NCBI GenBank assembly: GCA_944328495.1
Contig: CALVHR010000047.1
Coordinates: 1-63,171 of the forward strand
Length of the DNA: 63,171 bases
Source: an uncultured Clostridia bacterium
GTDB lineage: Bacteria > Bacillota > Clostridia > Christensenellales > Borkfalkiaceae
Reading direction: 5' to 3'
Position 1 is the stretch's first letter. Each line of letters starts with the position of its first letter. Of this stretch, positions 54,905 through 61,029 are shown one piece after another. A program made the position numbers and the translations under genes. The notes beneath the pieces are model-generated. The model made no database searches. It had not been told where the DNA came from and saw nothing but the letters and a program-made list of their open reading frames with translations.

Positions 54905-55315
54905 TTATTCCATATGATTATGGTTCTTTACGCGAAGCCGTGCAAACGCACGTTGCAACGCCGCGCGATTCAGACGATATTCTGCCGCACTTCTGTTTCG
55001 CCGCAGCTGCTCTTCTGCCCGCTCGCGCGCTTCGGCAGCTCTGCGCTCGTTTATGTCTTCAGGCCATTCAACGGCTTCCGAAAACGCCACTGTTTCATCC
55101 GGACGCACTTCCACAAATCCTTCGCTCATAAAAGCTTCGCGGGTAACTCCGTCCGCCGTGATCAGAAGTGAGCCCGGTTCAGTCGCAAAAACCATCGGCT
55201 GATGCCCGGCAAGAATCGTACACGATCCCCCGATCGAAGGTATGTTTACGCTCTCCACTTCGCCGCGAAAAAACGTCTTTTCGGGAGTGATGATCTCCAG
55301 AAAAAATTTATTCAT
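54905..55315 (-). CDS. atpC: ATP synthase epsilon subunit
   Basis: A 136-residue F1 central-stalk subunit that couples gamma to the c-ring and can inhibit ATP hydrolysis. The N-terminal beta sandwich has FLEIITPEKTFFRGEVESVN and GSCTILAGHQPMV. The C-terminal helix pair is Arg/Ala-rich. Last gene of the operon; GGAGG site. Confidence 0.95.
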   Translation of the reverse strand: MNKFFLEIITPEKTFFRGEVESVNIPSIGGSCTILAGHQPMVFATEPGSLLITADGVTREAFMSEGFVEVRPDETVAFSEAVEWPEDINERRAAEARERAEEQLRRNRSAAEYRLNRAALQRAFARLRVKNHNHME

Positions 55316-55340: not shown

Positions 55341-56735
<1,395 letters not shown>

Positions 56736-56754: not shown

Positions 56755-57615
56755 TTAACTCTGTGAGAATCTTCCCGAAGACAAGTCGAGAAGTTCCGTC
56801 GTGATCGCGCCCTGCCGCAACCGGTTGTAATCCAAATTCAAAGCTTCCAACATTTTGTCCGCATTCTTATTCGCATTCGACATTGCCAGCATGCGCGATG
56901 CATGTTCGCTTGCCGAAGAATGAATCAAAGCAGAATAAATCATCCCCGTCAAATACTGCGGAACCAGTACGTTCAAAACTTCTTTCGGCGACGGATCGTA
57001 ATAAATTTCACCGCTGTAAGTGGTTTTTACCTCCGCCTGAATATCTTTTTCTTCAATCGGAAGCAATTTTACCATCTGAGGATCGTGTTTCACCGTCGAA
57101 TACATCCGCGTAAAGACGAGATATACTTCATCCATCAGATTGCGATCGTACAGTTCCAGAATATCACGCATGATACCGCGCGCATCATGCAATGTCGGAT
57201 TCGTGACCGCATGCGTAAATTCGAGGTCGACCTGTTGCTTTTTGGACTCAAAAAATGCGCGCGCCATCTGCCCGATCGTAACGACATAATGCACGGGACG
57301 CTTCTGCATATGCTCCCAGGCAAGATTGAGGACATTGCTGTTAAAAGCTCCCGCCAATCCCTTGTCGCCCGCAATGACAATGTATGCCGTGCGAGTATCC
57401 GGCCTGTGCATGAGATATTTATTGCGGATATCCGTACTGTGGCGCATAATATCTTTCAGCGTATAGCGCACGGTATCGAAATATGCCGCACTGTATTGAT
57501 GTTTCAGCATTGCTTTGCGCATTTTTGCCACGGATATAAGCTCCATCGCTTTCGTGATCTGATGCGTGTCTTCAATGCTCTTGATCCTGTGACGGATTTC
57601 TGCGACGTCTGCCAT
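56755..57615 (-). CDS. atpG: ATP synthase gamma subunit
   Basis: A 286-residue rotor shaft subunit. The N-terminal helix RHRIKSIEDTHQITKAMELI and the C-terminal helix ASRMLAMSNANKNADKMLEA, which form the coiled-coil shaft, are conserved. GGAGG site; 2 nt after atpA. Confidence 0.96.
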   Translation of the reverse strand: MADVAEIRHRIKSIEDTHQITKAMELISVAKMRKAMLKHQYSAAYFDTVRYTLKDIMRHSTDIRNKYLMHRPDTRTAYIVIAGDKGLAGAFNSNVLNLAWEHMQKRPVHYVVTIGQMARAFFESKKQQVDLEFTHAVTNPTLHDARGIMRDILELYDRNLMDEVYLVFTRMYSTVKHDPQMVKLLPIEEKDIQAEVKTTYSGEIYYDPSPKEVLNVLVPQYLTGMIYSALIHSSASEHASRMLAMSNANKNADKMLEALNLDYNRLRQGAITTELLDLSSGRFSQS

Positions 57616-57617
57616 GA

Positions 57618-59156
57618 TTATGCCTCCGTCTCAGCTTGCTGTCCGCTGTCTCCGCCCACTGAACAGTTAATGTATTCCTCCGCCACGGACAAAATTTTGC
57701 TGCGAACCACTTCGCTCAGTTTCTGATCCGGATCAATCTCTTCAAGCAATTGTGTACTGTTGGTATGCATATAATCCAGCAGGCCTTCGTTGAACGCGGA
57801 CATCTTCTTTTCCGGAATCTTATCGGCCAAATCGCTCTGTGCTACGGTAAGCAGAATAATCATTTCTTTTACCGTATAATTCAGATACTGCCTCTGTTTG
57901 AGCGTATCCGTCATTTTTGCACCGCGGCTGAGCGTCTTTTGCGTTTCACTGTCCAAGTCAGACCCGAACTGCATAAAAATAGCAAGTTCCCTGTACTGCG
58001 CCAAATTGACGCGGAGCTGGCCGGATATCTGACGGATCGCCGCGCGCTGCGCGCTTCCGCCCACACGCGAAACCGACAACCCGACGTTGACCGCAGGCCG
58101 TACCCCGCTGTTGAACAATTCGCTTTCCAGATATATTTGTCCGTCCGTAATCGAAATTACGTTGGTCGGAATGTATGCCGAAATATCTCCGGCAAGCGTC
58201 TCCACGATCGGGAGCGCCGTGATCGACCCGCCTCCTTTTTCAGCAGAAAGCTTGGCCGCCCGTTCCAAAAGACGAGAATGCAAATAGAAGACATCGCCCG
58301 GATACGCTTCACGGCCCGCAGGACGCTTCAACAGCAAACTCATCGTACGATACGCCACGGCATGTTTGGACAAATCATCATACACGATCAATACGTCTTT
58401 GCCCTGATACATGAAATATTCGGCAAGCGCACATCCGCTGTACGGCGCAATATACTGCAACGGTACAGCGTCGTCTGCCGTCGAACTCACAATGCACGTG
58501 TATTCCATGGCCCCGGCATTGCGCAAAGTTTGCACGATTTTTGCCAACGAAGAAGCTTTTTGCCCGATCGATACGTAAATGCAAATAACGTCTTCGCCTT
58601 TTTGATTCAAAATCGTATCGATCGCAATCGCCGTTTTACCCGTCTGCCTATCCCCGATGATCAGCTCACGCTGTCCGCGACCGATCGGAATCATGCTGTC
58701 GATCGCGAGAATCCCTGTCTGCAAAGGCTTATTCACTTTGCCCCTGTCCATAATGGAAGGTGCGGGGAATTCGACCGGGCGGGTCTGATCCGTCTTGATC
58801 TGGGCAAGCCCGTCCAAAGGCTCTCCCAACGGGTCCACGATCCTGCCGATCAGCTCTTCTCCTACCGGCATCTGCACAGTTTCGCCCGTGGAATATACAA
58901 TATCACCATAACGAACTTTATCTTCACCCGAAAAAAGGACCGCGCCGACGCTGTCCTCCTGCAAATTCAAAGTAAGGGCACGATACCCGCCTTTTACTTC
59001 AAGAAGCTCGTTGTACTTCGCGTCATGAATGCCCGAAATATGTATGATCCCATCACCGGAATCAACAATCCTGCCGCACACGCGCTCATCTCTTTTATTC
59101 GGTATTCTTTCAACTTTATCGCGGATATCCTTCCCGATTTCTTTTACATTGATCAT
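57618..59156 (-). CDS. atpA: ATP synthase alpha subunit
   Basis: A 512-residue regulatory nucleotide-binding subunit. The P-loop is GDRQTGKTAIAIDTIL; the arginine finger region RVGGSAQ is present. The N-terminal ~25 residues (NVKEIGKDIRDKVERI) are present with normal length. That helix normally docks on the N-terminal domain of delta, which is missing in this operon. Confidence 0.98.
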   Translation of the reverse strand: MINVKEIGKDIRDKVERIPNKRDERVCGRIVDSGDGIIHISGIHDAKYNELLEVKGGYRALTLNLQEDSVGAVLFSGEDKVRYGDIVYSTGETVQMPVGEELIGRIVDPLGEPLDGLAQIKTDQTRPVEFPAPSIMDRGKVNKPLQTGILAIDSMIPIGRGQRELIIGDRQTGKTAIAIDTILNQKGEDVICIYVSIGQKASSLAKIVQTLRNAGAMEYTCIVSSTADDAVPLQYIAPYSGCALAEYFMYQGKDVLIVYDDLSKHAVAYRTMSLLLKRPAGREAYPGDVFYLHSRLLERAAKLSAEKGGGSITALPIVETLAGDISAYIPTNVISITDGQIYLESELFNSGVRPAVNVGLSVSRVGGSAQRAAIRQISGQLRVNLAQYRELAIFMQFGSDLDSETQKTLSRGAKMTDTLKQRQYLNYTVKEMIILLTVAQSDLADKIPEKKMSAFNEGLLDYMHTNSTQLLEEIDPDQKLSEVVRSKILSVAEEYINCSVGGDSGQQAETEA

Positions 59157-59174: not shown

Positions 59175-59390
59175 TCAAACATTTTCTTTGATATTGTCAA
59201 GGCGGCTCCGCAAAGAACCATCAAATATCACATCTCCGATCTGTATGATTATACCTCCGATGATGTTTTCATCGATCTCATACGTGATCTTCCTTGCCCC
59301 GCGTTTTTTCACGAATTTCTCGATCTTCGCAAGCGTATCTTTATCCGCCTCCATGGCCAACGTCACCGTGGCCGTTACAGCCTTTTTCAT
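59175..59390 (-). CDS. atpH: Truncated ATP synthase delta subunit (C-terminal domain only)
   Basis: A 71-residue protein matching only the C-terminal part of delta: it begins MKKAVTATVTLAMEADKDTL and contains ENIIGGIIIQIGDVIFDGSL and RSRLDNIKENV, the conserved end of the family. Normal delta has ~180 residues, with an N-terminal six-helix bundle that holds the alpha subunits. The ATG at 59390 overlaps the atpF stop (ATGA) and has GGAG 6 nt upstream, so this is the real start and nothing precedes it. The b subunit contacts this C-terminal domain, so the stator would attach to b but lack the usual grip on the F1 head. Confidence 0.88.
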   Translation of the reverse strand: MKKAVTATVTLAMEADKDTLAKIEKFVKKRGARKITYEIDENIIGGIIIQIGDVIFDGSLRSRLDNIKENV

Positions 59391-59923
59391 TCTTCTTCGC
59401 TCCACTGCTCAATACAGTCTTCGATCAGTTTCTTATTATCCTGCGGCGTCAAATCCCTTGCTAAAACCTTTTCCGCAACGGCAATGGAAACATCCGAAAT
59501 CTGCTTTTTGATTTCCGACTGAAGCTTGTTCCTTTCCTCTTCCATTTCGCGCTCGGTACGCTCGACTAAATCTTTTGCCTCTTTGCGCGCACTCGATACG
59601 ATCTCGTCTGCTTTCTGATTCGCCACCCTGACGGCATTGTCATGAATTACGGAAGCTTGTTTCTTTGCTTCGTTCAACACCACTTCCGTGCTGCTTTTCA
59701 TGCTCTTGACTTCTTCGTTCAGATCATTGTTTTCCTGTTCGATCTTACGAATCTTCTCCTGACGCTCTTTGATCATTTTCTTTACCGGCTTAAAGAGCAG
59801 CAAATACAGCCCGACCGTAAGAATGATCAGCGCAATCAGATGAGCAACGATACTTTGCCAGTCAAAGCCCAGCGCATCAAATATATTAGCAAGCCGCTGA
59901 CTTTCGACATATCCCATATACAT
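59387..59923 (-). CDS. atpF: ATP synthase b subunit
   Basis: A 178-residue peripheral stalk subunit: one membrane helix (SIVAHLIALIILTVGLYLLL), then a long charged coiled coil. The C-terminus (SDVSIAVAEKVLARDLTPQD) is the part that binds delta. I start at 59923 (AAGGTG 4 nt upstream), although an ATG two codons later is possible. Length is normal, so it has not absorbed the missing delta domain. Confidence 0.94.
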   Translation of the reverse strand: MYMGYVESQRLANIFDALGFDWQSIVAHLIALIILTVGLYLLLFKPVKKMIKERQEKIRKIEQENNDLNEEVKSMKSSTEVVLNEAKKQASVIHDNAVRVANQKADEIVSSARKEAKDLVERTEREMEEERNKLQSEIKKQISDVSIAVAEKVLARDLTPQDNKKLIEDCIEQWSEEE

Positions 59924-59951: not shown

Positions 59952-60209
59952 TTAAGCAACAAAAATCAGCAAAATACTGACGAGCAAACCATAAATTGCA
60001 GTCGTTTCCGCAAAAGCAAGCCCGAGCAAAAGCATTGTACGGATCTTGCCGACTGCTTCAGGCTGGCGAGCCGTCGCCTCTACCGCTTTGCCCGTAGCAA
60101 TTCCCATACCGATACCGGCGCCCAAACCTGTCAGCGCCGCAATACCGGCACCGAGCAATGCACCGTCCGTTGCAAGCAGATTTGCCACCATAGTGATTAA
60201 AAGTTCCAT
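59952..60209 (-). CDS. atpE: ATP synthase c subunit
   Basis: An 85-residue two-helix ring subunit. The loop ARQPEA and the ion-binding Glu68 in [12 protein letters not shown] are conserved. The position equivalent to the sodium ligand Gln32 of Ilyobacter is Met35, and Val63 is Phe66; this argues for protons, although the E-T-T triad is like sodium-type rings. GGAGG site. Confidence 0.96.
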
Positions 60210-60249: not shown

Positions 60250-61029
60250 TTAAGCAGCTTTTTCCGCAATCGCCGTTTGCAGAGTTTTCTTGTTCTTTTT
60301 TTGCCGTCGCGGCGGAACCTCGATCGCTTCCTGCACGAAAGTAAGTGTCAGCGATGCAAAAACATATGACTGGATAAACGCGTGGAAAAGAGTAAACAGC
60401 GGCGTCAGAACAGCCGGCAAAATCAACGGCAGTCCCAAATACCAAATACCTTCCACAAGTATATATATCATATCCATAATGACCATGCCGCTCAGAATGC
60501 TGCCGAACAGACGGAATGTCATGGACACCGGAACCGCAAGATCGGTCACAATGTTTATCGGATTAACGTAATGCAAAAGCCTGCGCGCTTTGTTCTTTGT
60601 AAATCCAAGCGTATGAATAAAAAGAAATGTGCAAAGAGCAAGTGCCATGCATGCACCCAAATCCGCAATGGCCGGACGAAGGCCAAACATTTCGATCAGC
60701 ACGCCGCAACATATATAAGCCGCAGCGCCCAATGTGTACGGCCCCATTAAGCCGCTGTACTCTTCCGTCATCTCATCCGCGCTTTTATCGAAGAAACACA
60801 CAAGCCATTCCAAAAACATCTGACCGCCTGTCGGCGTAGTCTTCCAATGGCGTATGATCGTAAGGCGCAGAATCAATGCCACAATCAAAAGCACAGCCAC
60901 AACTATAAATCCCGAAATCACGCTGTCATTGAGCACAAACCAGCCCTTTTCTACAACATGATGCGGGAAAATTTTTTCTGCCAAGCCCGAAAAATCAACG
61001 GCCAGCATATTATTCGCAAAGTTTTGCAC
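60250..61029 (-). CDS. atpB: ATP synthase a subunit
   Basis: A 259-residue membrane channel subunit. The essential arginine is Arg173 in VSMTFRLFGSILSG, and GLRPAIADLG and TPLFTLFHAFIQSYVFASLT are typical. The start is GTG at 61029 with a weak GGGG site; an ATG seven codons in is possible. First gene of the operon; there is no atpI upstream. Confidence 0.95.
   Translation of the reverse strand: MQNFANNMLAVDFSGLAEKIFPHHVVEKGWFVLNDSVISGFIVVAVLLIVALILRLTIIRHWKTTPTGGQMFLEWLVCFFDKSADEMTEEYSGLMGPYTLGAAAYICCGVLIEMFGLRPAIADLGACMALALCTFLFIHTLGFTKNKARRLLHYVNPINIVTDLAVPVSMTFRLFGSILSGMVIMDMIYILVEGIWYLGLPLILPAVLTPLFTLFHAFIQSYVFASLTLTFVQEAIEVPPRRQKKNKKTLQTAIAEKAA

Follow-up and report, generated by a model that had tools for sequence, protein, structure and literature searches.

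The atp Operon and Its Delta Subunit

The stretch of DNA analysed here (the window, 63,171 nucleotides, contig CALVHR010000047.1) comes from an uncultured bacterium of the Clostridia (Christensenellales; Borkfalkiaceae) and carries an F-type ATP synthase operon (Table 1). The gene order, a-c-b-delta-alpha-gamma-beta-epsilon, is standard, and atpH sits between atpF and atpA. Each of the seven subunits scanned with profiles scored above its own Pfam cut-off, and the c subunit was identified by eye. The operon is thus otherwise complete and conventionally ordered, as originally predicted. The start of atpF was set at an in-frame ATG after atpE (the mechanical open reading frame extends to 59962), and the b subunit has a normal length.

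Table 1. Genes of the atp operon in the window.
Gene	Product	Positions	Strand	Profile evidence
atpB	a subunit	60250..61029	-	PF00119, E 7.1e-28
atpE	c subunit	59952..60209	-	by eye (sequence and operon position), no profile scan
atpF	b subunit (peripheral stalk), normal length	59387..59923	-	PF00430, E 2.1e-18
atpH	delta subunit cut down to its C-terminal domain, 71 aa	59175..59390	-	PF00213 positions 100-171, E 1.9e-16
atpA	alpha, 512 aa, own gene	57618..59156	-	TIGR00962, 714.6 bits
atpG	gamma	56755..57615	-	PF00231, E 6.4e-85
atpD	beta	55341..56732	-	TIGR01039, 777.5 bits
atpC	epsilon	54905..55315	-	PF02823, E 2.5e-18; PF00401, E 3.1e-8

The product of atpH matched PF00213 with 61 bits (cut-off 22.3) over the last part of the 172-position profile only. 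Positions 1–98, the N-terminal helical domain (NTD), were not covered, and the score against the TIGR01145 delta equivalog model (52.7 bits) was below its cut-off of 57.5. The C-terminal b-binding domain (CTD) of delta/OSCP is present, as indicated by the profile match and by an AlphaFold2 model with the order b-a-b-b-b-a (mean pLDDT 82, 42-row alignment). This order agrees with that of the C-terminus of chloroplast delta, described as four strands and two helices in the accessible part of a review (PMC6131620). Matches of atpH to delta chains in the PDB likewise fell within the C-terminal part of those chains. The claim that the gene encodes only the last ~70 residues of delta is therefore borne out. 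The start codon of atpH and the stop codon of atpF overlap as ATGA, and a GGAG lies ~9 nt upstream of the atpH start, both as predicted. This overlap leaves no room for an NTD at the locus. An 18 nt gap separates the atpH stop from the atpA start, so the delta CTD and alpha are separate genes in the window.

Two known variants of the F-type enzyme were considered for the window. Since b and delta are separate open reading frames joined only by the ATGA overlap, and do not form a single polypeptide, a b-delta fusion of the mycobacterial type was ruled out. The N-ATPase, an alternate F1F0 enzyme, is not known to carry a delta gene. The window proteins fell far below the alternate-type cut-offs (TIGR03324, 607.1 vs. 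750.5; TIGR03305, 598.6 vs. 752; TIGR03321, 50.5 vs. 224.7), and alpha, beta and b exceeded the standard ones of TIGR00962, TIGR01039 and TIGR01144. Together with the presence of the delta CTD, this rules out an N-ATPase. Both are F-type enzymes with an altered stator, and the delta CTD is retained in the window.

The window c subunit retains E-T-T and a Tyr near the ion site and carries a Met there. Na+-type c-rings have Gln at the position of this Met, and H+ coupling of the enzyme consequently seems likelier.

The Truncation in Related Genomes

Comparison of AtpH with close relatives, which had been suggested as a check on the original prediction, showed the same truncation in almost every sampled genome of the genus. 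PF00213 was found once each in 33 of 36 same-genus genomes and in every case as the CTD only, with no match beginning ahead of profile position 90; the remaining three genomes had no match. At all 21 same-genus loci inspected (the window and 20 of the other 33), the open frame starts just upstream of the CTD. Selection on the delta CTD was estimated for the same 21 loci. The median dN/dS was 0.30 (range 0.09–1.0) when pairs with saturated dS were left out (137 of 210 remained), and the median pN/pS over all 210 pairs was 0.51. The CTD is kept under purifying selection, which, with frames that open just before it, argues against sequencing error or decay. An artefact or pseudogene reading of atpH, including a frameshift that hides ~180 codons, was ruled out by the congeners and by this selection.

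The missing domain was then sought in the genome from which the window comes (2.12 Mb, 56 contigs, 91% complete). The atpH gene was its sole PF00213 match, which leaves no full-length copy elsewhere in the assembly. An NTD-only HMM built from 16 sequences gave no match in this genome even at E 1. Across 37 genomes, its only match with E < 0.1 was the full-length delta of one genome (G047, 1.4e-21); seven further matches with E 0.1–0.9, in seven other genomes, were taken as chance. A separate NTD gene in the window's own genome was rejected on the basis of both models.

Within the order, PF00213 matched in 176 of 396 genomes, with a full-length delta in 33 of the 176. The other 143 had a weaker delta match (best E 7.9e-18 or worse). 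Among the matches listed, 113 of these 143 genomes have rows; the rows are of the CTD type, and none begins ahead of profile position 78 apart from 11 that the search program had extended upstream across a stop codon. AtpA was found in 180 of the 396 genomes (E 1e-100), and 216 lacked an F-type alpha at that threshold; a missing delta match therefore mostly reflects a missing F-type enzyme. Four genomes had AtpA but no delta match, and the one checked (G273, locus L169) encodes a CTD-alpha fusion whose CTD was found by a custom model. A single alpha gene was present in 178 of the 180 AtpA-bearing genomes, and a second in only two. In a separate scan of named genomes the highest AtpA identity was 60%, and that scan probably passed over close kin. 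Two genomes of the order, G070 and G279, carry a full-length and a CTD-type delta at different loci along with two F-type alpha genes, which suggests distinct enzymes used together.

In the class, 147 of 243 genomes had a delta match. At least 20 class genomes outside the window's order had a CTD-only match (beginning no earlier than position 87), in several cases alongside a full-length delta. Full-length and CTD-type deltas at different loci were also seen in G454, G616, G646 and G661 of the class scan, and contig 84 of G656 holds a single 270-aa frame that matches a full delta and, after it, another CTD. In the phylum, 129 of 149 genomes matched, and 122 of these (all but G000, G680, G698, G717, G775, G804 and G809) had a match from position 11 or earlier to the C-terminal end. 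Three phylum genomes (G701, G738 and G770) combine a full-length delta with two or three extra frames of 132–171 aa whose match is confined to the delta CTD. Loss of the NTD from atpH is thus a genus-level trait that is common in the order, and the CTD-only delta is found elsewhere in the class and is scarce in the phylum at large.

Architectures of the C-Terminal Domain

Architectures were called on fetched loci with custom models for the NTD, the CTD, b and alpha. The CTD is free in the window, L111–L122 and L124–L130, and is present as an unfused tandem pair in L123. It is fused to alpha in L131–L150 and others. In L151–L153, which belong to the window's family, tandem CTDs are fused to alpha; the b frames at these three loci are 234–268 aa long, with a C-terminal extension beyond the b match. 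Six loci (L038 and L155–L159) encode b'-CTD-alpha frames of 741–791 aa beside a separate b gene. An N-terminal hydrophobic helix was found in the b' part at six of six loci, and likewise in the separate b; for L155, the b' part was recognised from its position and this helix rather than by the b model. In an AlphaFold2 model of the L038 protein (mean pLDDT 73.1, 29-row alignment), the helical b', the CTD and alpha are distinct parts; b' has low confidence, and the model is uninformative about docking.

Fusions of delta to alpha with the NTD kept were found at L048, L052, L087, L095 and L098, under record titles that include Erysipelotrichaceae, Lachnospira and Subdoligranulum. Such full-length fusions are a possible step before NTD loss. 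At L043 (3842–4984), in a record titled Acidobacteria, a 381-aa frame with ~200 aa followed by a full delta lies near other b-matching frames and resembles a b-delta fusion.

The gap between delta and alpha had a median of 8 nt in 20 unfused loci (L111–L130; 19 free, one tandem) vs. 21 nt in 72 full-length loci. An internal start preceded by a Shine-Dalgarno match of at least five of six positions was found before alpha in only two of 41 fusions. Because such starts and second alpha genes are both rare, the fused forms should carry three CTDs per F1. The b'-CTD-alpha frames stand beside a separate b gene, and three membrane-anchored b' per F1 are predicted for them. Both stoichiometries are deduced from gene structure and could be altered by post-translational processing.

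The N-Terminal Segment of Alpha

The N-terminal segment that binds the NTD is conserved in canonical alphas. The window alpha lacks the canonical segment of the 'RPEEIS..IK' type. Motif counts were set aside in favor of an identity comparison because the patterns had been picked after the data had been viewed. At a core identity of 0.60–0.65, mean N-terminal identity was 0.36 among rows with a full-length delta (1305 pairs), compared to 0.187 where an NTD-less delta is unfused (86 pairs) and 0.179 where it is fused (155 pairs). At a core identity of 0.70–0.75, the unfused NTD-less rows showed no drop (0.494 in three pairs vs. 0.492 in 130 full-length pairs), and the fused rows did (0.327, 45 pairs). 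L129, an isolated NTD-less case, retains the canonical motif. These comparisons suggest that NTD loss was mostly accompanied by relaxed constraint on the NTD-binding segment of alpha.

Origins of NTD Loss

A tree of the alpha core was built from 139 rows and 468 columns. It comprised the window and L031–L170, with L001–L030 unused and with L089 and L103 dropped because a contig end cuts their delta or its surroundings. The window fell within a clade of 37 rows (SH-aLRT 99) that is solely NTD-less (19 free, 17 CTD-alpha, one tandem) and comes entirely from the window's order. A second clade of 22 rows, with Lachnospiraceae and others, held 15 CTD-alpha, three CTD-CTD-alpha, two full-length and two full delta-alpha forms. 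The b'-CTD-alpha forms made up a clade of their own (six rows, support 99), and L129 was a lone NTD-less row inside canonical rows.

A single clade of all 62 NTD-less rows was rejected by the AU test under both LG+G4 (p 4.2e-9) and a C20 mixture (p 3.9e-52), and one origin of NTD loss was rejected on this basis; the group in this test was set by trait rather than by tree, and long branches could bias it. Parsimony needed five changes, of which well-supported branches of the mixture-model tree force three. The NTD was therefore either lost repeatedly or regained after a loss, two histories that the test does not tell apart.

Comparison with Known Enzymes

The closest experimental counterpart is an engineered enzyme. 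According to the accessible text of Ueno et al. 2025 (PMC12229609), the delta NTD was deleted from the Bacillus PS3 FoF1 and the CTD was fused to alpha (deltaDeltaN-alpha); the fusion was chosen since free deltaDeltaN might bind unstably. The host was E. coli DK8, a laboratory strain without an FoF1 of its own. The stalks and a-subunits of this enzyme each numbered as many as three, and its H+/ATP was 5.8 vs. 3.0. The construct also lacked the epsilon C-terminal domain, its ATP-driven proton pumping was below wild type, and three-stalk particles were rare in cryo-EM, which was blamed on loss during preparation. The authors concluded that the NTD, on the pseudo-threefold axis, restricts the enzyme to one stalk, and that the protons per turn equal the c-subunit number multiplied by the a-subunit number. 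The delta NTD is absent, and the CTD kept next to alpha, both in deltaDeltaN-alpha and in the window enzyme; the former is an engineered fusion, whereas the latter has a natural, separate CTD gene.

A natural CTD-alpha fusion in a relative (L081, 586 aa) aligned over both domains, with its residues 15–540 matching 5–532 of 9jc1_I, a delta-alpha fusion chain of 580 aa. Three PDB chains matched over alpha only outscored 9jc1_I for this protein. From its chain name and sequence, 9jc1_I appears to be the deposit of Ueno et al.

The accessible text of the same paper also reports a natural NTD-less delta-alpha fusion in Acidaminococcus fermentans (UniProt G4Q3K6, A0A1I2C5T3), probably multi-stalk (PMC12229609). 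The NTD is lost and the CTD kept in both this type and the window. The CTD is fused there but free in the window, and relatives of the window carry the fusion. We found no mention of tandem-CTD or b'-CTD-alpha forms in the parts of that paper accessible to us.

Compared to canonical delta and mitochondrial OSCP, the window protein has the same CTD sequence, the same predicted succession of strands and helices, and the same place between atpF and atpA, but it lacks the NTD and is paired with a diverged N-terminal segment of alpha. A 'Rosetta Stone' fusion of b and delta is known (PMC5709465, accessible part). Mycobacterial b-delta (PDB 7jg5, 'ATP synthase subunit b-delta') is another rearrangement of the peripheral stalk, and the b'-CTD-alpha relatives likewise join b to delta. 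In 7jg5, however, b-delta is not joined to alpha, and its match to the window CTD is confined to the C-terminal part of the chain.

NTD-less CTD-alpha fusions and their predicted multi-stalk nature (PMC12229609) and b-delta fusions were thus already known, as far as the accessible parts of these sources go. Our literature searches (bioRxiv and most subscription papers lay outside their scope) found no follow-up on natural multi-stalk enzymes; no free CTD-only delta, tandem CTDs or b'-CTD-alpha; and no account of the order-wide spread, the repeated origin or the relaxed alpha N-terminus.

Discussion

We give about even chances to the view that atpH encodes a working, naturally occurring deltaDeltaN and that the F-type ATP synthase it belongs to is otherwise normal, plausibly with several stalks and a higher H+/ATP ratio. 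The free CTD would still bind the C-termini of b2 and would dock straight onto the N-terminal segment of alpha. With the threefold axis of the alpha3beta3 crown vacant, each alpha may take its own CTD, and the enzyme may carry two or even three CTD-b2-a stalks. Under the rule of Ueno et al., such an enzyme would have a higher H+/ATP ratio and work at a lower proton-motive force. RnfC is present in the window's own genome (E 4.1e-141), and PF00346, which we take to represent the large subunits of Complex I and energy-converting hydrogenases, had no match in any of 21 genomes. A modest proton-motive force is consequently plausible, which fits the multi-stalk reading as a circumstantial argument.

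Extended to the order, the proposal is more tentative and, in our judgment, falls somewhat short of even odds. It holds that the order runs natural multi-stalk F-type synthases: repeated NTD loss would have lifted the one-stalk rule, and the CTD would then have been left free, duplicated, fused to alpha or built into b'-CTD-alpha, where three stalks would be obligatory, with turnover traded for the ability to make ATP when the proton-motive force is low. The b'-CTD-alpha genes are the best argument from genomes that some relatives really use three stalks. The three CTDs expected of the fused forms are not forced in the window because its CTD is unfused. The limitations of the engineered precedent given above also count against several stalks in the window, as does the unchanged N-terminal identity of alpha among the most similar unfused NTD-less pairs.

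The main competing explanation, which we consider a realistic possibility at roughly one chance in three, is a single-stalk economy in which the CTD links one b2 stalk to the N-terminus of a single alpha and the NTD is simply dispensable. A free CTD could be made at one per complex, and the gene order and gene number in the window are ordinary. One alpha already touches the C-terminal region of delta in canonical enzymes, according to the accessible text of PMC12229609. The less conserved alpha N-terminus also fits one weakly held stalk. Yet a single stalk leaves the repeated fusion to alpha, with its three CTDs per F1, the tandem CTDs and b'-CTD-alpha unexplained, and with the axis vacant nothing obvious holds occupancy at one.

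It is improbable that the place of the NTD on the crown is taken by a protein that went unrecognised, or by a diverged NTD whose gene lies elsewhere or in the 9% of the genome that is missing. HMMs can overlook strongly diverged domains and the genome is 91% complete, but none of the 33 CTD-only same-genus genomes has a second PF00213 piece, the NTD-only model recovered only the full-length delta of G047 below E 0.1 in 37 genomes, and conservation is lower in the alpha segment to which such a domain would be expected to attach. The original prediction had offered an unusual stator-F1 contact, a compensating protein or a domain encoded elsewhere. The first is favored by the absent NTD and the less conserved alpha segment in NTD-less enzymes, and the third gained no support from either profile. 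A compensating protein is unnecessary for the data: the engineered NTD-less CTD-alpha enzyme assembles and makes ATP, as stated in the accessible text of PMC12229609, and relatives carry such fusions naturally. The spread through genus and order and the possible rise in stalk number had been missed.

A degenerate or uncoupled enzyme, for example a decoupled ATPase heading for loss, is still harder to credit. The whole enzyme is often absent, as 216 of 396 order genomes lack an F-type alpha at the threshold applied, but in the window seven subunits exceed their Pfam cut-offs and c is present by eye, delta is under purifying selection, and the NTD-less clade is diverse. That a sequencing, assembly or gene-calling artefact masks a full-length atpH is next to inconceivable, even though the assembly is split into 56 contigs, of which the window is one, given the identical truncation in 33 of 36 congeners, the frames that open just before the CTD at all 21 loci, and the ATGA overlap.

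The diversity of NTD-less bacteria indicates that the NTD is dispensable in nature. If the multi-stalk reading is true, the window enzyme would be the natural counterpart of the lab-made multi-stalk synthase and would make ATP from weaker proton gradients. NTD loss may raise the stalk number rather than just weaken the stator, and the b'-CTD-alpha genes give the strongest hint from genomes that a three-stalk enzyme may be obligatory in some relatives. This raises the testable question of whether cells set H+/ATP by the number of stalks in addition to the size of the c-ring.
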